Of a stretch of 64,000 nt of DNA, positions 4,366-57,500 are shown in pieces. The notes beneath the pieces are model-generated. The model saw nothing but the letters and a program-made list of their open reading frames with translations, searched no databases and had not been told where the DNA came from. This DNA is from Arctopsyche grandis (Eukaryota > Arthropoda > Insecta > Trichoptera > Hydropsychidae). The first letter of the stretch is position 1, and each line of letters begins with the position of its first letter. A program made the translations under genes and the position numbers. Location: the NCBI RefSeq assembly GCF_051622035.1, contig NC_135355.1:42263486-42327485 (forward strand). Reading direction: 5' to 3'.

Positions 4366-4537
4366 TATACTTTTAGTTTTATTGGTTTATTATTATTTAT
4401 TTATTTATTTTATATAAAACTACTAAAGGTTTCATGCTACTAATTTGCGGAAACATTTATTCGCGTCGCCCTTCACTTTATAAGAGTATTTAAATAAATA
4501 TAAACTTACAAATTTTATTTTATTTTTTACATAGATA

Positions 4538-5295
4538 TGTAGGAATCTCGTCGTCGTCATCGTCATCGAAACCTTCGAGAATATTCCGCAACAACAAAAT
4601 ACATCGAGCGGAACACCATCAAGCATTCCAGAAAATTCGACGCCTCGACGAAAACAAAATTCCTCTCGTACGCGTCAATAACCACTTCCATCAAGCATTC
4701 CAGAAAATTCGACGCCTCGACGAAAACAAAATTCCTTTCGTACGCGTCAATAACCACTTCCACCAAGCATTCCAGAAACCATATAAAAGGAGGTACAACC
4801 CAAACAACGCCAGTCGACCCAGAGCAGCAAGCGTCGACACACAGCAGCAGACCAGTCAACATACAGCTCCTGACCAGCCACCACTACACTACGCGGACTT
4901 GGAAGATCAACCAGCCGGACGAGCCAGCAACACACTGCCGTATCCAGAGACCTTCCGTACATAGCTGAATGCTGAGCCAGCGACACTCTACCATATCCAG
5001 AGACCGCTGAACGACATACTTTTGCCCACAAATACCATACCTTTGTACAACCATAGGCAAACAATAAAACTTTATAAAACTAGCACAACAGTGTTTCGTT
5101 AGGCCGGGATACGGTCAACACACATGTAACCCGCCTACATTGGTACTACTCCGACGTGATCTACGCAACCTTCTGATCATCCAACAGCGCTGTCAACACA
5201 TCGCTACCCCGCCTACATTGGTGACCCCATCTTTGAACCACACAACAGTGTTTCGTTAGGCCGGGATACGGTCAACACATCGTACCCCGCCTACA
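4538..5295 (+). repeat. Left LTR of the 4.5-7.9 kb element
   Basis: 758 bp, apparently identical to the right LTR. Order: terminal TGTAGG; a 72-bp unit repeated about twice (about 4615-4760) ending CCACTTCCA; TATAAAAGG at about 4782; a GA/CA-rich stretch; AATAAA at about 5062; and then three versions of a module ending CCGCCTACATTGGT (near 5128, 5208 and at the LTR end). The last version runs into the interior. Confidence 0.85.
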
Positions 5296-5399
5296 TTGGT
5301 GACCCCATCTTTGAACTACGCAGCCTTCATAGCAGTCAACAGCGCAGTCAACACGGCAGCCCACAGTGCAGCCTCCACAACAACCAACAGCCGCCACGA

Positions 5400-5600
5400 C
5401 AGCAGCCCACAGCGCAGCCTACATAGCAGCCTACATCGCAGCCCACATAGCAGCCCACATTGCAGCCTACATAGCAGCCCACATCGCAGCCTACATAGCA
5501 GCCCACATTGCAGCCTACATAGCAGCCCACATCGCAGCCTACATAGCAGCCCACATCGCAGCCTACATAGCAGCCCACATCGCAGCCTACATAGCAACCG
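5400..5600 (+). repeat. 24-bp tandem repeat inside the LTR element
   Basis: About eight copies of a 24-bp unit, GCAGCCTACATAGCAGCCCA plus CATC, itself made of two similar 12-mers. The array keeps several frames open on both strands, giving artificial Ser/His-rich and Cys/Gly-rich ORFs. I do not regard these as genes. Confidence 0.85.
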
Positions 5601-6179
5601 CAGACTTCACGCAACCGCAGCCTTCAACGCAGTCTACAACGCAACCCTCAACGCAGACTTCAAACGCAGTCCGCTACATGTCCCCACAACTAGTGACCAT
5701 GTCAAACAACTCCGCAGCTTTCGCCACAACAAAACGCAACCCGGAGACAACAACCAAATGGATCCACTACTGTTGATCCGCCAGCACCGCTCATCACACC
5801 TTCGATGATTCATCACCTCGATGAGCCCATGCAGGACGCCGCAGCCTGCACAACAGCACCGTCCAGACCGTCACAAACCTTCACTACCATTGTAACGACC
5901 GCAACAGTAACATGGTGTGAAAGTACATATGGACCAGCTACCAACACAACCCGCTGTTGAGTCAACCCACTCCAGCACAACCGGCGAAACAAATCGCCAC
6001 TGAGCCAACTAGCTCCAACACAACACAGCCGCTGTCGAGACAACTAACTCCAGCACAATCAGCACAACGCCTGCACAACAACATCGTCCAGACCACCAAC
6101 CTTCACTATCAACGTAGCCTAGACAGAATAAGCAACATGGTAGAAAAGAACAACTCGGACTGGTACGCAAAACGAGACC

Positions 6180-6870
6180 CGCTGTCGAGACAACCGACTC
6201 CAGCACAACCAACGAAGACCAGCACTCAACGCACTTCGCTAACCAACAGTCTCCACACAAATTCCGCTGCCGAGACAACTAACTCCAGCACAACCAACGA
6301 AGACCAGCACTCAACGCACTTCGTCAACCAACGTTCTTCACGCAAGATCCGCTGTCGAGACAACTAACTCCAGCACAACCAACGAAGACCAGCACTCAAC
6401 GCACTTCGTCAACCAACGTTCTTCACGCAAGATCCGCTGTCGAGACAACTAACTCCAGCACAACCAACGAAGACCAGCACTCAACGCACTTCGTCAACCA
6501 ACGTTCTTCACGCAAGACCCGCTGTCGAGACAACTAACTCCAGCACAACCAACGAAGACCAGCACTCAACGCACTTCGTCAACCAACGTTCTTCACGCAA
6601 GATCCGCTGTCGAGACAACCAACTCCAGCACAACCAACGAAGACCAGCACTCAACGCACTTCGTCAACCAACGTTCTTCACGCAAGACCCGCTGTCGAGA
6701 CAACTAACTCCAGCACAACCAACGAAGACCAGCACTCGACGCACTTCGTCAACCAACGTTCTTCACGCAAGATCCGCTGTCGAGACAACCAACTCCAGCA
6801 CAACCAACGAAGACCAGCACTCAACGCACTTCGTCAACCAACGTTCTTCACGCAAGACCCGCTGCCGAAC
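6180..6870 (+). repeat. 85-bp tandem repeat inside the LTR element
   Basis: The anchor CTGTCGAGACAAC recurs at 6352, 6437, 6522, 6607, 6692 and 6777, exactly 85 bp apart, with more divergent units to the left (about 6181 and 6269). Units contain AACGAAGACCAGCACTCAAC and CTTCACGCAAGA. Neighbouring units differ at only one or a few bases, so the array was amplified recently. Confidence 0.85.
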
Positions 6871-7166
6871 CAACTAACTTCAGCACCACCAGCAAAACAG
6901 TCACGCGAATGACTCCACGCAGAACACAGCAGCCTGCACAACAGCACCATCCAAGCCATCACAAACCTTCACTACCAACGCAGCTCGCCCAAAATAAGCA
7001 ACCTGGTAGAGAACAAGACTTGGACCGGCATGCAACACAAGACCCGCTGTTGAGACAACTTTCTCCAGCACAACCGGACAAACAACGACGCCATCGAGTC
7101 AATAGACTCCAACACATCGAGATTCCCACAAAATCACACACATCGCTAACACTCACCGGAGAGCCA

Positions 7167-7924
7167 TGTAGGAATCTCGTCGTCGTCATCGTCATCGAAA
7201 CCTTCGAGAATATTCCGCAACAACAAAATACATCGAGCGGAACACCATCAAGCATTCCAGAAAATTCGACGCCTCGACGAAAACAAAATTCCTCTCGTAC
7301 GCGTCAATAACCACTTCCATCAAGCATTCCAGAAAATTCGACGCCTCGACGAAAACAAAATTCCTTTCGTACGCGTCAATAACCACTTCCACCAAGCATT
7401 CCAGAAACCATATAAAAGGAGGTACAACCCAAACAACGCCAGTCGACCCAGAGCAGCAAGCGTCGACACACAGCAGCAGACCAGTCAACATACAGCTCCT
7501 GACCAGCCACCACTACACTACGCGGACTTGGAAGATCAACCAGCCGGACGAGCCAGCAACACACTGCCGTATCCAGAGACCTTCCGTACATAGCTGAATG
7601 CTGAGCCAGCGACACTCTACCATATCCAGAGACCGCTGAACGACATACTTTTGCCCACAAATACCATACCTTTGTACAACCATAGGCAAACAATAAAACT
7701 TTATAAAACTAGCACAACAGTGTTTCGTTAGGCCGGGATACGGTCAACACACATGTAACCCGCCTACATTGGTACTACTCCGACGTGATCTACGCAACCT
7801 TCTGATCATCCAACAGCGCTGTCAACACATCGCTACCCCGCCTACATTGGTGACCCCATCTTTGAACCACACAACAGTGTTTCGTTAGGCCGGGATACGG
7901 TCAACACATCGTACCCCGCCTACA
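7167..7924 (+). repeat. Right LTR of the 4.5-7.9 kb element
   Basis: Direct repeat of 4538-5295 with the same internal order of 72-bp units, TATA box, AATAAA (near 7691) and three CCGCCTACA-ending modules. Followed by GATA, matching the four bases left of the element. Confidence 0.85.
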
Positions 7925-24329: not shown

Positions 24330-25075
24330 AATATGGTATTTATTTGGTAGTAACACGTATACACAAGTATGATTAATTGTTGGCAAAAGTTTGTCGTTCA
24401 GCGGTCTCTGGATATGGTAGAGTGTCGCTGGCTCGGCATTCAGCTATGTTCGGCAAGTCGCTGGATATGGTAGAGTGTCGCTGGCTCGGCGTTCAGCTAT
24501 GTTCGGCAAGTCGCTGGATATGGTAGAGTGTCGCTGGCTCGTTGTTCTTCCAAGTCCGCGTAGTGAAGTGGTGGCTGGTCAGGAGCTGGATGTTGACTGG
24601 TCTGCTGCTGTGTGTCGACTCTTGCTGCTCTGGGTCGACTGGTGTTGTTTGGGTTGTACCTCCTTTTATAGTGTTTTTGGAATGCTTGGTGGAAGTGGTT
24701 ATTGACGCGTACGAGAGGAATTTTGTTTTCGTCGAGGCGTCGAATTTTCTGGAATGCTTGATGGAAGTGGTTATTGACGCGTACGAGAGGAATTTTGTTT
24801 TCGTCGAGGCGTCGAATTTTCTGGAATGCTTGATGGAAGTGGTCGTACGAGCATTTAGTTTATTGATGCGTACGAAAGGAATTTTGTTTTCGTCGAGGCG
24901 TCGAATTTTCTGGAATGCTTGATGGAAGTGGTTATTGACGCGTACGAGAGGAATTTTGTTTTCGTCGAGGCGTCGAATTTTCTGGAATGCTTGATGGTGT
25001 TCCGCTCGATGTATTTTGTTGTTGCGGAATATTCTCGAAGGTTTCGATGACGATGACGACGACGAGATTCCTACA
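24330..25075 (-). mobile_element. Isolated LTR related to the 4.5-7.9 kb element
   Basis: Its right end, GACGACGAGATTCCTACA at 25075, is the inverse complement of the LTR start of the element at 4538-7924. Leftward it has about four to five of the 72-bp units (against about two in the LTRs at 4.5-7.9 kb), the TATA region near 24664, and the GCTGGCTCGGCGTTCAGCTA region repeated about three times. The part corresponding to the far end of the LTR is not recognisable. No internal region is attached, so it is best described as an older, incomplete solo LTR. Confidence 0.65.
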
Positions 25076-26165
25076 GCCTCATAGGCGCGCGCGCATGTAG
25101 AGCGCGCTCTCTTACCCGCGAACTCTCGTCGAAGAAAGATCTCTCCTGTGCACGTCTCCAGGGGGAGACGGGGCCGAGATATTCACCGCCATTTTGCTGA
25201 AGAACCGCCATGAGGTCGGGTGTAGCATCACTCCCTCCCCTGAGTTCCAGCCCAACTTCCCCTGCATTCCTCACGCTGTTTCCGGAGAAACCTCAGCCGT
25301 GAGACCGACGAGGAAGCTGTTATCAACGCACACGACTTGCAGTCAGGAACCTCCCCGACTATATACATTTATATAACTATCCCAAGGTTAGTCCACGTTT
25401 CCACCTAACTTGACTCTTGGAAGAATAACGACGTATCACGCCCTCTGCATAAAGACGCGCGTAAATCCGTTCATTACAATACTAACGATATCATACTAAC
25501 GTTAGGCCGAGTCACGGATGATGCACACACACACACACACACACACACTTCTTTCATCATTCCGAACGGGTTGGATTGGTGAGAGCGTAATGCGCGCACT
25601 TTTTATTACGATTAATATTACGTGCGCCCGCGTGCCTATAAATTACCCTATTCAATATTTATGTATAACATATAATATGAAATTATTTTAATTCGTGTAT
25701 GTAATGTGACGTTCTCACAGCCATCCCATCAGTTCGCAACAGTAGCCTGTGAAAAGCGGTAGACGAGAGCCGTCCCTCGTCCATTCGCACTTCGACCGTC
25801 CAAGGGCACAAGCGTGCCCCTGTCACCCCCGCCCCCCTATCTCTCCCGAGCCGTTCCCATCGTGAACGCGCCCGGAGATCCACCATCTTGTTGAAAAACC
25901 GCGGGACGGTTGAATTTATCATCACTCCCTCTCATGAGTTCCAACGAGTTCGTCACCTGTATTTTCACTCAACTTCCTACCCCCGTGCGGATTAACCTTT
26001 CCATGGTAGCCAAGCGCTCCGGAAAGCCCTAGAAGCATCAACCGCTGGAAGACCGACACGAGGAGTTGTATTCCCAAGTAAAATACGTTTGTCACATGTA
26101 TCAATTTCTTTCTGAAATCACACGTTGGGTTGAATTGAATTGACGTGAATTGAAAATTTATGTAA
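25076..26165. repeat. GC-richer repeat-derived block with two diverged copies
   Basis: The right copy of the direct repeat is at 25479-25613. Segments near 25180-25330 and 25880-26070 share GAACCGCCATGAG/AAACCGCGGGACG, ATCACTCCCTC, TGAGTTCCA and CGAGGAAGCTGTTAT/CGAGGAGTTGTATT, in the same order and orientation. They are therefore diverged tandem copies of one unit. No gene family is recognisable in either. Confidence 0.5.
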
Positions 26166-36585: not shown

Positions 36586-39500
36586 TTAATATTCCCATTG
36601 GGTAGCTTGTTCGATGGTTCTGTCGCCAAGTTTGAAATTTCCATTTTTAGTCGCAGCTAAGTATTCTCCAGTGACAGCCTTGATGGCAATCCTAGTCGGT
36701 TCTCGTAATTCCAAATGGAAACCTGCTGGGTTTTCGGCATCGCATGTGACACCTTCACCGTCAACACGCCAATACTTTCCATTTTGTCCTGAAAATAAAA
36801 AATAAATATTTACATACAATCACATACAAGATGTTCAGACATACAGTATGCATGTGTTTTACCTTTGAAATAGACGATTCCTTTGGGTCCCCTCTCTACT
36901 TGAATGGTTTCATATGTGGCTTTATTGCACTCGAGCTTAGGACTAGTGGAGGATTTAAAACCAACAAATCCTTGTTCACATTTCAATACCAAAATAGGTC
37001 TGTTTAAAAACAAATACAAAAAAAAACTTTAGTGCATATTTTCGAATCAAACTGTCACAGTAAAAAATTGTGAAAACAAATTACCTGTTAATCAAATAGA
37101 AGTAGTATTTACAATTGTCATCGACGGCGTCAGAATTAGCGTAGAGGTGACCGGAACGTTTAGTAGTAATATATTTACCATTATTGGCACGGAATGATAC
37201 GGAACCGTCGCCTTGCCATTCCAAATCGAACAAAGCATTTGAAGATCTGAAATATAAAATAAAAAAATATTAACATTTGAATACGCAATCAAAAAAGGCA
37301 AAACGGATTTGAAGAAATCATACTTTTTGTCTCCAGAAGCTTGAATACCACCGCCTGTTTCAAGAGTCCAATAGCGATCTTGCATGGTGCGTACATACCA
37401 ACGGCGAGTGGACCAATCGAATTCCAGTTGGAACGTTTCGTGATCGGAAATTTCATCTTGGTTTGCAGTCACATCGACACCTGAAACATTAAATGGATTT
37501 TATTTATACATAAAATATTTCAAGACTGAATACTTGCGCTCATAAAATGATAGAAACAAAGAGTTTTATGGTTCAATAAATTGAAGATTTACAACAGGAA
37601 ATCATAGCTTTTTTTTTTAATAAGTGATAAAAAGAGGTAGTAGACACACTAGTAATAGTACAATAGTAACAACCAGATAGATCAGCGTCTTTCAATCCAA
37701 GTATTGTGGCAATGCAGGAAGATTTGTTCATATCAAACAAAGAAAAATATATTTTTTATGTATTATACATACATATGTATGTATGTATACCTGAATTAAA
37801 GATTGAAGAAATGACAAATATGTATTACAGATTCGTACTTAGTACTTATAATTTCAAGTGTAAATTGAAATTTTGTCGGATTAAAGTTAATGTCGCAACA
37901 TTTCAAATTTGTTTAAGTATTTGGTAAGTAACAGTGTTGAAGAGAGTAAAAATGATAAGGATTGTTTGCTGAAACAATTATTGGATATGCAAAAATCGTT
38001 TTCTGAAATATTTTCTTGCCGGCCATGAAAAATTAGATTATGTTCAAAATTCTGCTGACGAATCTTACGATACGATAGCTCGAAATTTCTAGTAAAACAG
38101 ACCAGTTCATTGATGTTTCGACTGACTTTAAATTAAAGAGGTTTATTATTTTTTATTATAATGATTTTGTCTTCGTATTTATCGAAAGTCAAAATCAGGG
38201 TATCTTGAAAAGCATCAGCTTTGAATGTTCCAGGGTTATAAATGCAGCGGTAAGTTGAAGACCACTGTATCAGATACATAAAAATGGGCGGTTCGAGCTG
38301 GTGTTTGCCGATCCGACGGTCTTGCTCTGTTTCTTTCGTATAATGAGAGATAATCTTCGTCTACCCTCGAGATACCGGTATTGAGAGATCAACGATAGTT
38401 CGACATAGCTCAGATATTAGCCTCAATACCAAACCGACTGCGACCGCCTTTACAATAGCAAGTTGAATAAGTTGATGCGAAAAATTGATCAAATGCGTTT
38501 GGCGGGCTGTCGAATTCCATTGACACATCCTGTTGTGGAAATAGCCTCAAAGACGTTTCAGATATATATTTTTTATATTCCACTAACAGTATTTATTTAA
38601 AAATTTAAAATATACATACATATTCGCTTTAAATTTTACGGTTCGCTTTAAAGTTTTTTGTTGATCTACTACACTGTTGGACACGAAAAATGGTTCAGAG
38701 ACGAGATATGACTTTTCTTATAGATCTATGCCCAGTAAACACGAATCTGGTAATACAAAATGTTGATTGGCTCGAGATTCCGAGATATGTGTTTTTTAAA
38801 TCGCGCGATTTTTCTATATCTTGGTGTTGTTCGGTCGATGTCTCAAAATCTGTCAATTTCCCGTTCAAAATGAATATTGGAATTTATAGTCGGGTATTTT
38901 ATCTTTCATTTGTAGTACTTTTCAGCTTTCAAATCTCTTTAAGTAGTCGTCCAGTTCAAATCAAAAGTCAAAAATACGTATTTTCACTTGGGATTTTTTC
39001 CCACTGTTAATACTATTTTATATTGAGTATTTTCTATTGAAAGATGTTCATTGGGATAGTGTTCTGGCCACACTATTTTTTGTTTTCGTTTAAAATGGTT
39101 AATTGGAAGTGTGCTGAATTTTAAATCGGACTAAAAATTGCGGACTAAAAGCTCGTACTAGTATTTACTCGTATTTACACGAATCTGAATCGAATTAATA
39201 GGGATAATATATTAACTTGTCTTTATATGAGAATTAAATAAAATTCCACTTATAAAAATCACATTTCGACTATTCTTGTGGATTAATAACAAAAATTATA
39301 TTGATAACTGGTTTATCTCGATAAAATAAACGAATATATATGATGACATGGCACTATAGTAATAAAGTAAAAATGAAATATGAAAAAAAAACAGTAAATT
39401 GTAACGTTCAGTCACTGCTGCAGTTCGGTTATAATATTATACACTAGTTGTTTTACCCGGCTTCGCTCAGTATTTGTAATATAAACAGCGTAAACATGGC

Positions 39501-45500: not shown

Positions 45501-48500
45501 CGTTTTAAATGCAAGTTGAAAACTATCGAAGATTGGGTCGTGAAGGTGAATGATAACCTTAATTAAGTCAACGATCCATTTACCAGCGTTGAATAATTGC
45601 AATGTGATTTTTTTTAATGACTTCAGAAGATAATAACCACCGGCATGTTCTCGACTTTCTAGTACTTATTAAAAAAAATATATAGTTGTAGAAGTTTTTT
45701 TTTATGAATAGTGGAGATAAATTACAGTAAAAAGAAATTATACTAACTTGAGGACGAGCAGCAAGATGCACGTGCCAAAACTCGGCATCGCCTGGAGCTT
45801 TGGCCGTGCACGTGAGCTTATCAGAACTTGAACCCAAGAAATAGCCTCGGGTTACGTTTCGCAAAGCCCAACGTCCGGTGCCATCTTCAGCAACGCTAAA
45901 AAGAAAACAAACAAAACAGATTAGTTGACTGAAGTAGGTATATATATTTATGTACGTATGCATTATATTAAGAAAGTGCTTCTATGCCTATATACGTATG
46001 TATGTACGACAAAGTATAGTGGGGATTCGATATAGTCCGTTAGAATTCACCAGAAGATGTCGAGTCATACAGAAAAGTAGAATTCGAAGACGATGAAAGG
46101 TGCCAATTTATCATCTGAATGGATCGTCCGACTTACAAATGTGCATTTGATTGGTGTCCGGTCTTCAAAGTGAGAGTGTACATAAATCTGTATTATTCGT
46201 AGATGGATCGGAGATAGGAAAAGCGAAATTACACCAGCTCGTATTTCGATGGGGAGAAAAAACAGATTTGACGATGATCCAAATTTCAAACATTTCATCG
46301 GACGAAAAATAAAATGTCCATTGTGCAATTTTTATATGCAAAATGTTATTGCACTTTTTCTTTCACACGATTCACCAGCAATAAAGCGTTGTTTGCCTTT
46401 TATATAACAGTTGAACTTTCTACTGAACTTCATCGTGGGTTAAGTTCACATGACGTGTTCCAATCTCAGTTCCCATTCATTTGTCGGTCAATTGAAACAT
46501 TTAACTACATAAGTATTTTATGATAAACCAGAAGAATCATTCGCCGTTTGCTCGGACGGATGAAAGTTAAAACAAACTAAAAAATTGTAAATGTATAATC
46601 TACGGATCGATTTAAGGTCTGTTCATACCTAGTCATCACGTACGGACTTCAGCAGGTATCCGGCCGTACGAAAAATATTCTTTGGTACATTTTGTATGGG
46701 TATATTCATACCAACCGTCACGTTTACGCCACAGCAGGCTTACAGCAGTACCCGAAATTTCCTGTTCATACCTTACAGCAACATCCGTCAACGTATCGTA
46801 TCCGTTTTTTTTGGCCATCGTGGAAATATACACGCGAATTACGTGCCATGAGTCAGCCGCTTTGCTGTTTTGGACCAATTATCGATAGTGACAGTTGACA
46901 GCTGTTCAATCTTTCGACATGGTTTTGGTGCAAATATAAAAAAAATATTTAAATTTTTTTTTCCATCATCCACAAGCTCCTTATACAGTGTCCAAAACTC
47001 TTCTTCGGTTTTTTTATATTCTTTAACATGAGATGCACATCTGACTTGTATTCTGACGTGTAGCTACGAATGCACTTCATATTGTAAGTACTCGACAATA
47101 CGACGTAAGCAATATTGCGCCGTATCGTCATGGCTTGTAATGTATAAGTAAGCCGATTTTGCCTTGCACTCGGCCAAAGTGCTGTGAACTCGACGTGACC
47201 GCGACGTGTAGGTAGATATGAATAGAAATGTAATAAAATGACATATTTGAAACGGAGTCGTGCAGTGCTGAAGCCGTGCAGTGCTGTTAAGTATGAACAT
47301 ACCTTTAGTCGGTTGAAAATTGATGGTTACGAAAAGTTTCACAGTGAGCGACAAATTTCTCGATTTAACAATAAAAAATTCTAATCATAAAATTGCGATT
47401 GATTTGTATCCACCACGCACTTCTCTAAATACGTTTTGTGAATGACGGACGATAGTTTCAATTTAGTTTAATGACGAATTATTATCGTCTATTATATTTA
47501 ACATGCGAATTACGCATGTCACAGAAGCCCATGAAATATTCATGCCACAAAAATAGCACCCCAGTAAAAAAAAAGCGAGACGCGTGCATTAAAATGTGAT
47601 AAGGAATGACCCTCGAACGCCGGATGTATCGTACTTATTATGCAAATGATACACAACATAAACGCCATAAGATTAAATATGGTTATTGAAAAATCCCATG
47701 CAATCCGAATGCGTATTTATCATGTCGGAAAGTCCGCCATTCACCGCGTGAGAGACGTGTGTAGTCAAGAATTAGGAGGGTTATGAATCATATGAAATCT
47801 GTGTGCTACGGAAATGTACATATTATATAATACTTATGTATGTACGTACATATATTTAATATAATACCGGGTCGTTTGGTCAAAATTACCTGCAATTTAT
47901 ATTCTAGAATCGACTGCTTTCCAGAGCATGCGCAGAATACTTAAGAGACGGGGGGGACTTTCCCCAATTTGGCAGGTTGCCCCGAGGGGTTCAAAATAAA
48001 TTCAGAAGGGTGGCCCTGTGCGTTTTGTTTCATATATTATATGTAGGTAGAAGGTACATACCTGGTGCAAAATTCGACCCCTCTAAACCAATCATTATTT
48101 TAACCCACTGCTAACAAAACTGACAACAACTTATTGCAGCTCATAATATTTGTTTTCACAATGAAAGTACATACACTACCGTCCATATGTTTAAGACCAA
48201 ACCTATAACTCGATTTCTAATGTCCATTAAAATAATTTAGCGTAAAATAGTTCAAAGAAATGGGTATCATTTGTTTCCCTACACCCTTGGATTTAATTTG
48301 AGCAAAAAAAACAGGGATTATCCCATTGGTTTGTTGTTTTTTTTATATAAGGGTTCAAAATGGGCTCAAAGACACCGCGTGACGAATCGACACATGTTGC
48401 AATTCGACAACTCTACTATACGCAGTTTATGTTACGAACTTTTTTTGTTATTTTATCCTGCTGATATGACATCGAAACAGTTCAAAATAATAAACCCTAA

Positions 48501-51500
48501 ATGAATTTGGTTCAGTTTAATCTGATCAGTCAGACTTTGAAGTCGTACTAGCGGAAAAATTTATAATACATAAAGAGGACAAAAATTTTTGAAGAAATAT
48601 GGGAAAAAATAAAAATCTCACCATGGAAACTCGAGGAGCCATTATTGCTCTTTACAAACAGCAAAAAACCCAACGATATATCGCCGAAAATTTGAATATT
48701 TCGAAGACTGCAGTACAACAGACGATAAAAAAATTCCAAAATTCTAACAACATTATGGATTTATCAAAATCAGGACGTCCCAGAATCACAACACAAGCAT
48801 TGGATCAACAAATGATATTATTGAGCAAGCGAAATAGAAGGATAACGGCACCAGAAATCGCCTCTGACATAGAAAAGACAGCCTTCAAAAAAGTATCGGT
48901 CACCACGGTTAAACGTCGGCTGATGGAAGTGAAGCTGGAAGGGCGCATAGCAGTAAGAAAACCATTATTAAGAAGAAATAATAAAGCGAAAAGACTAGCT
49001 TGGGCTCTTCAGCATCGTAATTGGTCAATTGAAGATTGGTCAAAAGTGATTTGGTCCGATGAATCGAAGTTTGAATTGTTCGGTTCGAAAAGACGAGTTT
49101 ACGTCCGGCGCACTCCCCAAGAAAAAATGATGCCAGACTGTGTGCTGCCAACAATCAAGTATGGTGGTGGATCCATAATGATATGGGGATGTTTCTCAAG
49201 AGCTGGAGTTGGGATTTTAATCAAAATTAATGGAATTTTAAAAAAAGAAGGGTATTTGAAAATTTTAAAAGAACAAGTTTTGCCGTGCGGCCGGAACTTA
49301 TGTGGGCATGATTTTATATTCCAACAAGATAATGACCCAAAACATAAATCAAAGCTATGCATGGACTTCTTACAACAAGAAGAAGAAAAAAATAATTTAA
49401 AAATCATGAACTGGCCTCCTCAATCCCCCGATTTAAACCCAATAGAACTTTTGTGGGACGAATTGGACAGACGAACCAGAATCCATCGCTCAACATCCAT
49501 AAATAAGTTTTGGAATCATCTACAGGAAAGTTGGAAGTCCATACCTCCCATCACACTTCAAAATTTAATAAATAGAATGCCGAGACTATGTGCAGCAGTG
49601 ATTAAAAGTAAGGGTGGGTTTTTTGACGAAAGTTCAGTTTGACGTTTTTATTTTTTTATAATTTTATGTTTATTAATTGTTGTAATATCTTTATTTATTT
49701 TAATAAATGCGTATTTTTTGAACATAACTGAGTTTATATTTTTTAAATTGGTCCAAAATTGTGTAAAATATGCTCCAAAAACACTTTGGTCTTAAACATA
49801 TGGACGGTAGTGTACATATTTTTGAGACTTGCGTTAGTAATAAAGGATATGATAACAAGAAGTGAAAGAATTTGGTGATGGAAAGAAAATTACGCATACG
49901 AAAAATCAACATATTGAAAAAAAAATGGGATTGAAGGTGTCTCAAAAATTAAATTTCATATATAAAGTACATTGTAATAAATGACATTGAACATAGCCTT
50001 GATTATCGCAATTATTTGTAATTTTATTAAAAAAAAAAACCCCTCATCGTATTGAAAAACCTTATACATAAATGAAGGCAAATATAATTCTTACTTGAAA
50101 AATTCCCCTCGTACATAATAATCACAGTATGAAAGGATTCTGAAAATATGTATATTTGCAATTCCGATAAGATTCTAAGGAGTTTCTGATAAAAATTTTA
50201 AATTCTTTTAAATTTAAAAAATTTCAATTTCAAATATGTATCTGTTAACCATTTGAGTTCTGTTGAAAGCCCGCCACACTGAAAATTTCGCCAACGTTTC
50301 CAACTAGAATTATTTAGAAATCCAATAGAAAGCAGGTATAAAATCTGTAGCTAATCCAAACAAACCCTAGGTTACTACCGCCGAGGATTCCGAGTTTTGT
50401 AAAGGTGTGTTTAGACTCTTTAATATATCTTGCAACAATATAAAATAAACAAAAGAAGTCTATTAATGAATTCCGGTGTAAACCATTCTTTATAAACATT
50501 GCCACGGATTACACGACCCATGTTCAATGCATTATTTTCCAATGCTACGTGGAAAGGCTTAGCGGGCAGCATTCTTGTTTATTTTTTACATGCTCAAAAA
50601 ACAACGCCTATCAGCGTATTTCAGGCTCATGGACTTGTTGGGAAAACGCCAATCGGCGTTGGTCAGCAATCAAAGGGTTAACTGGAGGTTAAAGGGTACA
50701 TAGTCGAGTGTTGCATTTAAAATTCGCTGGTAGCGGTTTCAGGATAAAAGACAACGTACATATGTATGTAATTAACCTCATCGATAACGTAAAAGTTTAT
50801 GTATAAAATATTTCATAGCCAGACGAGAAATGTGCATACGTGTGTGTACATAATTCAATAATACACCGCAGTGAAGTGCATTTTGGTTCCGCTCTCCCTT
50901 TCATTCCACACGGATGTTACAAGTGGATTCGGAGGGGTGCGAATGTTGGACAAAAATATACAACACGCATACTTACATACTAGGGGGGTAGCATTTCAGA
51001 ATTAAGGGTGTTGGAAAGACCTTCACTACAACCTTGACTAAATTATTGTCATCAGATAAAAGTTTTAATTTAAAAGCACGACCATCTCACTCACTACATA
51101 CGTAGACCACACGCGACAATAGATTTATCACATACAATAGAATAAATTAAGACAGAAAAACAAGTGTCGCGTTATTTACAGAGCAAATCAGAAACGATTT
51201 TAGTGTCGACGAAACTGTACACATGGTGGGGTTTGAAAATAGGCAGTCGACGTAAAAATTCTCGAGGGGAGAACTCTTGAGGGCGAGGGAGTAAAAATAA
51301 ACGTATGTATGCGAGTGAAATATTACAGGGGATGATTTGTGAAAAGACCAAAGTTCAAGGGCAAGTCATCTTTGCCCCCGGGGAAACATCCATCTGGTCC
51401 AGCTTAACGTTATGCTTCAATACTTTTAATATTTTGATTCACGACTACAATTTTTTTTATAAATAAATCGAAGGAAGGATTGAACACAGTTTCCGAGTTT

Positions 51501-54500
51501 TAAGGAAAATTATATTTTGTTAAAAGTATGATTCATAAATTCATCGTCATTGTGGACCATATTTTTAGAATTTTGCGATATACACATGTATGTACATATG
51601 TTAAAAATCCACAACAGTTGTTTATTTTTATAAATTAATTAATTCATTTTCACGTTTACTATTTCTCAATGGTTTTATTTTATTTCACGCTTCCATTATT
51701 CACTATGTACATATTCTGAACAACACTGAACCATCTAACGCCACATATTTTCCTTAATTCATCCACCCATCTTACTAATGACTTAACATTCTCTTGGATA
51801 TCAATCGAGCACTTCCTTTGTACACCTCTTAACCGTTTCTACATATTACCCACACATGTATTATTCATTCACTTCACTTGCTCAACATTGTCTGTTACCC
51901 ATGGATTTCGCTTTCTGTTTTTCCTTGTGATTCAATGCCCAAGTTTCCCATTTACACGGATTGTGTGTAAAATAGTGTTTTTTTATATTTTTTTATGATA
52001 TTTTTGCACCATCGTAATGGCGGAGGATCCATTTACTTATATTGATGACCAAAATGAGCAATATGGCAAAGTATGAAAACGATCGGATAAGAGGCAAACT
52101 TTTTCCTGAATTGTAATCGTAAGTGAAACGTAAAGGAGGTATGTAAAAATAGGTGATACTTAAAATAATTTAAGGAAAAATTTACCAACCTGATTTGGAA
52201 TTTGCTTCCCGCATCCTTTTCTTCGCTTTCGCAGGTTACATTTCCAAAGGAATCGACAGCCAAATATTTGTCGAGGTGAGAGCGCAAGTATATGATACCT
52301 GTGGAAGATGACGAAAATGAGTGTCCATAAACATAAATGGTATAAATAAACAATTAATAAAGGAGTTGTAAATATTAATATATGATGCATAGTGAAACGC
52401 AATTTGGTGTAGAACACGCCAACAGAACGTGCTTTCGCATACTCCGTTATAGCTTTACTCGGCCATAAAATGGATTTTCGCATATAATTTAAGCTCGTTT
52501 CAGCATCGTTATGTGTTGTGTTGTATTGTGCATAGCTCACAGTGAGAGTTTTCGCATAATAATGAAAATTTCACACGACGAGATTGAAATAAAATATGCG
52601 ATAAAAAAAGTATGCGACACGATGGAGAAAATGTTTACATCCACAGGTGATGGTTCTACTCATACGAAAGCTACACAGAGGTGTGAATTGTTAACGCTTT
52701 TTCTTTGAATTCAAATAAAAATTGCCTTTTTTGCAAGCCATTATAATATATGTATGTATGTATGTATGTAAGTATATGAGAAATCATCGTTGGAAGATAT
52801 GCGTTTTCCATTGTTAATGTATCTACTTATTATATGTGTACAACTTTCATCGTAATTAAATCGATAGTTTCGATTGTATAGAGAAATTATTGTACATATT
52901 CACACATAAACAGTATACAGTTCGAAAGAGCGATCATCTCTTTTCAATATCAATTTCGTATATTCTTTCTTCGACTAAATTTTAAAATGTGATGAAACGA
53001 TATTTTTGTATGATTCTCCATATTATACATACATCTGCGTTCCTCCCGCTATTACTCGCTTAAACCCGGCTATTGCACGAAATTTAACTTAACCATCTAA
53101 TCACTTATTTTACTAATTGCATCCTAGTATAATTTAAGTGTAAAAATAAACAGCAAATCGGTCGTAAAAAGCGGTTTTATATCAGTTATTTCGAAAAATA
53201 TTGTGCTAATTTTTGTGTCAAATCGGTGTCAAACGAGATACATCTCCCTACCTGAATACAAAAAAAGGGTCCTTCGCCAGCCAAGTCGGTCCCACAGAAG
53301 CAATAAATCTTCCACATAATTGCTTCCAGCCAAAAATCTTTAACGAACTTTACTTAATAGCAAACAGAAACGGTGTTTCCCAACTGTCTATCAGTTCTTT
53401 TTCATATTTAAATTATATTAAAGTAATTCGTGTAATTTTATATACTTTACTAAAGTTATTATTAAAATATTAAATTGCAAACCGCACTCACATATATAAA
53501 TCCGTTGTCTCCAAAGAGGCGTCTCACGATAAAGATCTGTAAAAAAGTAGTATAACAATTGCTAATCTATTATTATCATAACTAACTACTTTCACTTACA
53601 AAGTAACCCTGTTAAATGGCATGTAATAACTCATAAGTGATCCAAGTGATACCTAGGATGACTATATGTCAAAGCTGACCACAGAGAAGAGTTTATGGCG
53701 GTAAGAACTCACTCCTTGAATGGAAATCTCTCTCAAGTACCGCCTTTTTCTCAACACATCTTGGATAAATGCGAGAAAAATAATATCCAAACCTCCAACA
53801 AGGTAAGAGTGACGATGGATGATAGCTTAGCTAATAGAAACCTGTATTTAGCCACGTACAATGTAAGAACGTTATCGAGTGAAGGAAGTGTGCTTGCATT
53901 AGAGAATGAACTAGAAAGTATCAAATGGGATTTAGTAGGACTTAGCGAAGTAAGACGAAAACAGGAAAACCAAATAATCCTAAAAAGTGGTAACTGTCTC
54001 TACTGGAGAGGGCTACCAAATGGTAGAATAGGAGGAGTAGGGTTTCTTATCAATAAGAGAATAGAAAGAAATATTATAGAAATAAACGACATATCGGAAC
54101 GTATATGCTATGTAGTATTAAGAATCTCGAGCAGGTACACTTGTCAAATCTTCCAAGTGTACGCCCCCACATCTAGCCACCCAGACGAGGAAATAGAAGA
54201 CTTCTACGAAAAACTACAGGGCGCATACGATAATAGCCGCCACCACTTTAAAATAATCATGGGCGACTTTAACGCAAAAATAGGACAAAAGGCAAACACA
54301 GAAAGAGCAGTAGGCAATTTTGGTACCGGCCAAAGAAACGACAGAGGCGATCGCCTCATAGAATTCGCAGAACACAACAGGCTCTTCATCACTAATTCAT
54401 TTTTCAGGAAAAACACCAACAATAAGTGGACTTGGGAGAGTCCTAAAGGAGACAGAAACGAGATCGATTTCATCCTAACAAATGCCCTGCACTCCGTTAA

Positions 54501-57500
54501 AGACGTTAGTGTTCTAAGTAAAGTAGATATAGGCAGCGATCACAGATTAGTCCGTGCCAAGATGGCCATTAATATAAATTGCGAACGTAGGAAATTAATA
54601 AAAGGATGCAGTAACTCTCCAGATTTCGCTCAACTAAGGTCTAGGAAAAAGGAATTCGAACTCGAACTTGGAAATCGATACGGGAAATTAAACCCAGAAG
54701 CAGACATCGAGGAATTGAACACTGTAATTAGTTCGGTTCTAACCTCAACAGGTAAGAAATTAGGTGGTTTCAGGAAACAGATTAAATTAAGCAAAATTTC
54801 AGCGGAAACAAAAAACCTAATTAAGCATAAAAGGAATTTAGATAGGGATAATAATAAGCAAGAATACAATCTAGTAAATAAGGAAATTAAGAAGAGAATA
54901 GTCAGGGATGTCAGGGATTTTAACAGCAAGCTAATAGAAAATACCATTAAGAATAACCGTAGCCTGAAAAAGTGCAAACAGGATCTTTTCTTAGGCAAAA
55001 ACCAAATGATCGCAATCAGATCAGAGAGCGGAGTAATAATTAGGAATAGAGAAGAAATCATAGACAGAGTTTACACGTTCTATGCAAAACTATACGAGAA
55101 CGACAACGGCCAATTCCCCACTCTGGAATCGACACACGGCCAAAGGGTTCCTGCAGTATTGCCTAGCGAAGTAGAGGCCGCGCTAAAAACTGCAAAGAAT
55201 GGTAAAACCCCAGGGGAAGATAATATTCCCATCGACTTACTAAAATGTGGCGGCCCCCCCCTAATTAATATCTTAGCTAGGCTTTTCAGCAAATGCATCC
55301 AGAACCAAGCTATACCAGAAGGATGGAATAACGCAACTATCATTTTAATACACAAAAAAGGCGACAAAAGCGATATCAAGAACTACCGACCCATTAGTCT
55401 ACTTTCAGCGGTCTACAAGCTCTTCACGAAGGTTATTACAGAAAGGCTGAAGAATATCCTCGACGAGAACCAACCTATAGAGCAGGCAGGGTTTAGGGCA
55501 AATTTCAGCACAATGGACCACCTCCAAGTAGTTGGCGAACTAATCGAGCGCGCCAACGAATATCAACGGCCACTGTGCCTAGGTTTCGTCGATTATGAGA
55601 AAGCCTTCGATACAGTTAGTCATAATGCAGTACTTAACGCTCTAAAAACACAGGGAGTGCCGGAACCCTATGTGGGACTGTTAGCTACAATATATAAGAA
55701 TGCCACAGCTTCAGTTAAAATTTTTTCAGGTACAGATAGATTTAGCATAGGAAAAGGAGTAAGACAAGGAGATACAATCTCGCCCAAGTTATTCAATGCG
55801 GTGCTTGAGGGAGTTTTCAGGAAATTGGATTGGGATACAGCCGGAGTAAGCATCAATGGTCGCTTTTTGAGTCACCTTCGGTTCGCAGACGATATAGTTT
55901 TAGTAGCTCGTGATTCAGCTGACCTACTTATCAGACTAACACAGCTGGACAGGGAAAGTAGAAAAGTAGGATTAAAAATTAACGTAGATAAGACTAAACT
56001 AATGTTCAATAGTTATTGCATGCCTGATAGCATCCCCTTAGATGATAAACCAGTAGAAGTAGTAAATAATTATTTATATTTAGGTCAAATAATTGACATG
56101 TCTGGTAGTAAAAATGAAGAGATAAAGAGACGTATGAAACTGGGGTGGAGTGCATTTGGACGGATGAATGCTGTTTTTAAATCAAAAATGCCACTCTGCC
56201 TGAAGAAAAGGATCTTTGATCAATGCGTTTTGCCAGTGATGACGTATGGATGTGAAACTTGGACACCGAACGCCAAGATGCAAAATAAAATCCAATGCAC
56301 TCAAAGAAGTATGGAACGCTGTATGCTTGGCATAACGAGGAAAGACAGGAAGCGGAACACGTGGGTGAGAAATATGACAAGGGTAGTGGACATAGTGGAT
56401 AGAGTGAAGAGATTGAAATGGCAATGGGCGGGTCACGTAGCTAGGAGGATGGACGAAAGGTGGACAAAAGAAGTGCTTGAATGGTACCCGAGAGAAGGCA
56501 AAAGAGTAAAAGGAAGACCGCAAGGAAGATGGGTGAACGAAATTAGGAAAATGTGCGGAATGAGATGGATGAGTGTTGCGCAAAACAGAGACGAGTGGAA
56601 GCGTGTTGGAGAGGCCTTCATCCAGCAGTGGATGGCGAATGGCTGTAAATGATGATGATGATGATGACATATAAGGGAATGGTATGGAACATATCGTGTT
56701 GAGATCTACAACAACGAGTTGAAAACAAAACAAAAAGACGTACAGCGAGATGTCAGTGTCACAAATGACACAATGACAGTTGAGCCTGATGCATTTGGCC
56801 ATAACAAGCATATCGATTCATCACCATTATAATATCAACATTTTAACATTTATTATTAACACTATGAAAGAAGTAAAAATATATATGAGAGATGATGAGA
56901 ACCTACAATGCAAATTTTATAAAATATAGTGTGAAAAAGAAAAAGTTATAGGCGTTAATACAATTAAAATCTGACAAAACGAGAGGGTGGCGGAAAAGAA
57001 AATGTACAAAATTATTGTATTTTTTAAACGTGTCTATTACGATTATTTTTCACCATCGTACTGGCGGAATTGATTTGAATATCTATTGTTGACCGAGCCG
57101 CGCAAAATGGCAAAGTTTTAAAACTATTGGAAGAATGTAGGATATAATATACATATGTTGTCAGACCAATAAGCGAAGAGCGAAATACAGAAGAGGCTTG
57201 TAAAAACCATTATAAATGAAAATATAAGTTGAGATGATATTATCGCTCGGATACTTTATCCGCACATTATTGATAGGAATTTAATGGAGCACATTTAAAG
57301 TTATTTTGTTATGAAATCACATTGAAAAATAATTTTTGGTTCGATAGATTGCCCGAAAAAAATTATCCAACCAAAGTTAGGCAATTTGTTCTCGATTAGG
57401 GAGATTATTAGATTATTAGCAAGCAGCATAGTTCGGTCGTTAAGCTTCTGCCTAGCACCGAGAGGCGCCGGTTTCGATCCCATGAGCTGACCTCGATTGA

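Follow-up and report, generated by a model that had tools for sequence, protein, structure and literature searches.

A young, structurally complete Tc1-group transposon with a DD38E triad, most likely a member of Intruder, in the genome of Arctopsyche grandis

Introduction

A stretch of 64,000 nucleotides from Arctopsyche grandis (Trichoptera, Hydropsychidae), which corresponds to positions 42,263,486 to 42,327,485 of contig NC_135355.1 in the assembly GCF_051622035.1 and is called the window hereafter, carries a structurally complete Tc1-type element of 1639 bp at positions 48174–49812. The spacing between the second Asp and the Glu of its predicted catalytic triad raises the question of whether the element belongs to the DD38E relatives of Tc1 known as Intruder (DD38E/IT) or to DD34E/Tc1 proper, and whether it has moved recently. 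The best explanation, to which we assign a probability of about 85% from sequence comparisons, is that it is a young, structurally complete cut-and-paste transposon of the Tc1 group with a DD38E triad, most likely a member of Intruder. The element is a new host copy set of an already described DD38E sort, and so an ordinary find apart from the odd replacement carried by its youngest copies.

Structure of the element and its transposase

The left terminal inverted repeat (TIR), which starts with CACTACCG (48174–48201, + strand), and the right TIR (49785–49812, − strand) match perfectly over 28 bp and are flanked by the TA dinucleotides of the target-site duplication at 48172–48173 and 49813–49814. 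The transposase gene (48599–49642, + strand, stop codon included) starts with ATG and encodes 347 amino acids. The first-pass annotation, made from the letters of the window, had reported perfect 28-bp ends, a TA duplication and an uninterrupted 347-residue transposase together, and all of these were found as stated when the sequence was read again. A repeat search of the element reported no inner direct repeat of the TIR, and DNA folding of its left end gave nothing exceeding shuffled sequences.

The transposase contains the Pfam domains HTH_Tnp_Tc3_2 (residues 70–141) and DDE_3 (residues 150–297), both above their cut-offs, helix-turn-helix (HTH) motifs recognised by PF13384 and PF01498, likewise over their Pfam cut-offs, and a GRPR motif at residues 59–62. 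Among solved structures, its best match is to the catalytic domain of Sleeping Beauty (5cr4, E value 3.1e-52). Alignment to 5cr4 places the triad of the window protein at D154, D244 and E283 (codons 49058–49060, 49328–49330 and 49445–49447, + strand), corresponding to D153, D244 and E279 of Sleeping Beauty. Ahead of D244 the alignment has one gap of a single residue, and between D244 and E283 the window protein carries four inserted residues. The D244–E283 spacing is 38 residues compared with 34 in Sleeping Beauty, confirming the earlier DD38E assignment and setting the protein apart from DD34E/Tc1 proper, in which 34 residues lie between the second Asp and the Glu. As in other members of the superfamily, the 28-bp ends would be bound by the N-terminal paired HTH domains and excision would be carried out by the RNase H-like DDE domain, after which the element would insert at a TA inside an A/T-rich palindromic target with duplication of the TA. 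Catalysis, cut-and-paste movement and current activity of the element are predictions from its sequence.

Copy number and recent multiplication

The genome searched has 189 contigs with a total length of 475.7 Mb. A scan for the exact 28-bp end found 132 sites (65 forward, 67 reverse), and the reversed control gave none, indicating that the ends of the window element are not due to chance. A pattern made of TA and the outer 24 bases, with up to three mismatches, occurs 172 times (control, 0), which would imply about 86 elements if each kept both ends. A DNA search gave 40 scored copies among 123 first-look candidates, all 40 being essentially full length at 98–100%. Elsewhere in the genome, two copies match the window copy at every one of its 1639 bp and four more differ from it by one or two bases, so that the near-identical copies for which the first-pass annotation had recommended a search do exist.

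Copies were compared in detail in a set of 55 full-length copies, from which L019/L058 (a single copy interrupted by a nested insertion), L056 and further fragments were excluded, as were short copies with internal deletions or a fold-back structure; L001–L008 are repeats of loci used under other numbers. TA is present on both sides in 54 of the 55 copies, the exception being L057, in which the right end has decayed and the TA cannot be located. D, D and E are encoded at the triad positions of 54 of the 55, which makes the conservation of the triad a direct observation. The open reading frame (ORF) is strictly intact in 31 copies, 30 of which keep D, D and E; this count excludes L017 and L018, in which the start codon is changed, and includes L070, L071 and L074, which have an in-frame deletion, L074 also being without D244.

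The main group contains 52 of the 55 copies, with a mean pairwise divergence of 1.0% and a largest value of 3.3%. The three identical copies, the window copy included, sit on contigs C1, C8 and C11 with different immediate flanks, each bounded by TA, and identical copies are spread over several chromosome-sized contigs. The window copy is young and the element has recently multiplied. The description of the element as intact and probably young is thus borne out by the 347-residue ORF, the identical copies and the low divergence of the 52 copies, and the opposite case, in which all genomic copies would be old and diverged, does not hold for the main group or for the lineage of the window copy (0.08%).

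Copies with premature stops

A premature stop at codon 214 is common to eight copies. In the copy tree, which is a quick tree without bootstrap and with support from the Shimodaira–Hasegawa-like approximate likelihood ratio test (SH-aLRT), seven of the eight group together in a clade (SH-aLRT 96) that includes two pairs of identical copies, and the eighth, L063, lies elsewhere. This clade indicates that copies without a full transposase were multiplied, and the simplest and most likely reading is that transposase supplied by other copies mobilised them in trans.

A stop at codon 260 together with N280S is common to L065, L068, L069 and L075, and N280S also occurs in L066 and L067. L065, L068 and L069 form a clade among the copies with the codon-260 stop and may represent another group that was amplified with a stop already present. 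L089, L090 and L091 are short fold-back or internally deleted derivatives of about 0.44–0.74 kb with perfect 27–28 bp ends and are candidates for non-autonomous copies. The copy L058 (C1:18965700–18968900) has a nested insertion of about 0.9 kb which ends in a TAAAA-rich tail and is probably a non-LTR (long terminal repeat) element.

The window lineage and the H188Y replacement

The window copy belongs to a lineage of seven copies, which form a clade with an SH-aLRT support of 97. The copies differ from one another at three or fewer positions (mean 1.24), and their divergence of 0.076% is the lowest of the nine groups compared. The lineage is also the largest cluster when linkage is limited to copies one base or less apart; a more loosely related group contains nine copies. 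At an assumed rate of 3e-9 changes per site and generation, a divergence of 0.076% corresponds roughly to 1e5 generations.

Three replacements, G114E, H188Y and N206I, are private to the window lineage, and the other 45 of the 52 main-group copies and the three copies of a sister subfamily, described below, have G, H and N at these positions. Codon 188 (49160–49162, + strand), which comparison of the copies shows to encode Tyr in the window lineage, aligns with H187 of Sleeping Beauty, and the eight remaining Tc1-group rows of the alignment all have His there. In PMC4820933, H187 of Sleeping Beauty is modelled to contact target DNA, the H187D substitution abolishes activity, and the engineered H187F and H187Y substitutions support activity and are called hyperactive, with P values of 0.069 and 0.19; the text and the figure legend of that source disagree on which value belongs to H187Y, and neither is below 0.05. 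In the present element H188Y may be neutral, harmful or helpful. It is improbable that H188Y drove the burst of the youngest seven-copy cluster, which G114E and N206I set apart as well. If it did so, nature would have reached an activity-raising change of the engineers' kind during a live invasion.

Sister subfamily and selection on the transposase

Three copies (L053–L055) form a sister subfamily, which differs from the window copy at 0.13–0.14 of the compared sites and keeps the 38-residue spacing, save for later frameshifts and small deletions. Comparison of four main-group copies with the three sister copies (12 pairs) gives synonymous divergence (dS) of 0.40–0.43, nonsynonymous divergence (dN) of 0.07–0.08 and dN/dS of 0.16–0.19, indicating that selection maintained the function of the 38-spaced transposase during the divergence of the two lineages. 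The comparison thus directly shows both past purifying selection on this protein and conservation of its spacing. The possibility raised in the first-pass annotation, that the four-residue insertion is private to the window element, does not hold, since the sister subfamily, at a dS of about 0.41, also has it.

The dN/dS values are 0.88 and 0.95 for two pairs inside the sister subfamily and range from 0.52 to 4.0 for four pairs inside the main group with few changes each, indicating that each lineage has drifted since insertion. Among the coding alleles of the main group, singletons comprise 57 replacement, 10 silent and 4 stop changes, and shared alleles comprise 40 replacement, 10 silent and 5 stop changes, compared with a neutral expectation of 70% replacement, 22.5% silent and 7.4% stop; replacements are, if anything, slightly in excess. 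This superfamily usually shows neutral decay of copies inside a genome. None of the 55 full-length copies examined is of intermediate age. The simplest reading suggests two separate arrivals of the two subfamilies in the genome, perhaps by horizontal transfer.

Target sites and empty sites

An A/T-rich palindromic preference around the target TA is common to the insertion sites: the third base before TA is A in 50 of 54 copies, and the third base after TA is T in 46 of 54. For two copies, L075 and L077, an uninterrupted site with a single TA was found in repeats elsewhere in the genome, showing that the element inserts precisely and that TA is duplicated in the process. TACATA is also shared by the two flanks of the window copy, but the empty-site alignments of the two other copies show that the duplication consists of TA only. 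The genome contains no empty paralogous site for the window copy, since the flanks of this copy occur there once and have no other match.

Relation to Intruder and other Tc1-group families

The element resembles Intruder in the 38-residue D–E spacing and in the characters given for that family in PMC7731502, namely a length of 1.5–1.7 kb (1639 bp here), a single ORF of 341–379 residues (347 here), TIRs of either less than 100 bp or 100–272 bp with a TA duplication (28 bp with TA here), and HTH motifs and GRPR in the DNA-binding domain, both of which occur in the window transposase. According to the same source, Intruder is present in 40 arthropod species, with intact copies in 15, and has been amplified recently, in multiple invasion waves in some hosts; the window element has likewise been amplified recently. 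The Intruder copy of the 'cat' assembly tested there has a TIR of 210 bp, whereas that of the window element is only 28 bp long. The ends of bee DD38E/IT elements start with CACTA or CACTG according to PMC8472432, and the window element starts with CACTA. The same source reports one or two intact copies in bees, in contrast to the 31 of 55 strictly intact copies found here, although intact may have been defined differently there.

Sleeping Beauty (DD34E/Tc1) is also a member of the Tc1 group and shares with the window protein 43–44% identity in the catalytic domain and the Gly-rich strip KHGGGS, which reads KYGGGS in the window copy, but it has inverted repeat/direct repeat (IR/DR) ends of about 230 bp instead of 28-bp ends. 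In the catalytic domain the window protein is 43.6% identical to Sleeping Beauty, 31–40% identical to the DD34E rows of the host and 24% identical to mariner. In a ten-row catalytic-domain tree, which contains no Intruder reference and leaves out L080 and other fetched host loci, the window protein pairs with Sleeping Beauty with moderate support (90/89), apart from seven host DD34E rows and from the host DD34D mariner. It is therefore unlikely, judging from these alignments, that the window element is an offshoot of those host families.

The DD34E Tc1 families of the host (L039, L043, L046, L048, L079, L082 and L083) belong to the Tc1 group and have the SPDLNPIE motif, as does the window element. 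They differ from it in having a frame split as if by an intron and a spacing of 34, as opposed to an unbroken frame and a spacing of 38, and in having WPGN (WLGN in L048) before SPDLNPIE. The frame is split inside the catalytic region or just before it in L039, L043, L046, L048, L079 and L082, and in L083 the second Asp is replaced by Asn. Such split frames mimic a long D–E spacing when a match is read straight through. A long-spacing 'DD6xE' family, considered for host matches broken at about 254–264, was rejected, because the split frames point to an intron and the spacing is 34 after joining at the predicted splice sites.

A fish fragment, which we take to be of the DD38E type, aligns ungapped to the C-terminal part of the window protein with 53% identity over 107 residues and presumably has the C-terminus GGFFDES in common with it; this is a lead, not a test. 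Sleeping Beauty is 43% identical over 95 residues in the same C-terminal comparison. Literature searches with peptide strings retrieved no paper.

Alternative explanations

Several observations weigh against the assignment to Intruder or against activity of the window copy. The pairing in the ten-row tree lies below the starred support level, and the mariner row is a long branch. Searches with tblastn or pattern scans of viral, genome-contig, phage and plasmid collections found no useful relative and no Intruder reference, the only match in one plasmid-collection search being an IS630 transposase at 36%. A single-sequence AlphaFold model of the transposase, with a mean predicted local distance difference test (pLDDT) score of 45.7, is too poor for use. 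There is no signal of purifying selection within the genome among the main-group copies, and the multiplication of stop-bearing copies makes it less safe to conclude from an intact sequence that any one copy is active. Together with the three private replacements, one of them at a position where the eight other Tc1-group rows have His, these points mean that an intact window copy need not be an active one.

Since the nearest available reference is the DD34E protein Sleeping Beauty, on a tree with no Intruder sequence, a DD34E/Tc1 element might have gained four residues between the second Asp and the Glu independently of Intruder. Such convergence is unlikely, because the insertion is shared with the sister subfamily under constraint over the whole protein, and because length, ORF size, CACTA ends, TA duplication and GRPR all match Intruder as far as PMC7731502 and PMC8472432 describe it. 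Identity over 1639 bp could also arise by duplication in the assembly and not by real transposition, an explanation that deserves very little credence given that the identical copies lie on three contigs in different TA-bounded flanks, that the flanks of the window insertion occur once in the genome and that empty sites exist for two other copies. It is more plausible, if still doubtful, that the transposase of the window copy is defective and that this copy, as a passenger, depends entirely on other intact copies to move it in trans. The private replacements, the seven-copy clade with a premature stop and the neutral pattern within the genome agree with a passenger, but the triad of the window copy is intact, the engineered H187Y at the homologous Sleeping Beauty site supports activity (PMC4820933), and the window lineage is the least diverged group and the largest cluster at one-base linkage. 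A young DD38E transposon, most likely of the Intruder family, remains the preferred reading.

Surroundings of the element

An uninterrupted frame of 996 residues with endonuclease and reverse transcriptase domains, as in a non-LTR retrotransposon, lies 3.8 kb to the right of the element (53662–56652), and L049 encodes part of a similar protein. Fascin-domain matches occur in two pieces on the − strand (37092–37499 and 45580–45981). In the direction of that strand, the transposon is upstream of the second piece, so that it perhaps sits in a 5′ intron or upstream of the gene. Repeated peptide-like blocks (KHSRKFDASTKTKFLSYASITTS and relatives) at 4494–7597 and 24493–25182, in several frames and on both strands, are perhaps a dispersed, internally repetitive element. 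TTAGG arrays, present at one end each of C1 and C2 and absent at three other contig ends read, fit an arthropod host.

Significance

The copies form a well-populated DD38E set in which recent spread, the amplification of copies with stops and the presence of two diverged subfamilies can be observed together in a single genome, and the set bears on whether DD38E elements still move in arthropods. The window lineage provides a natural experiment on a single residue at the site of target-DNA contact.

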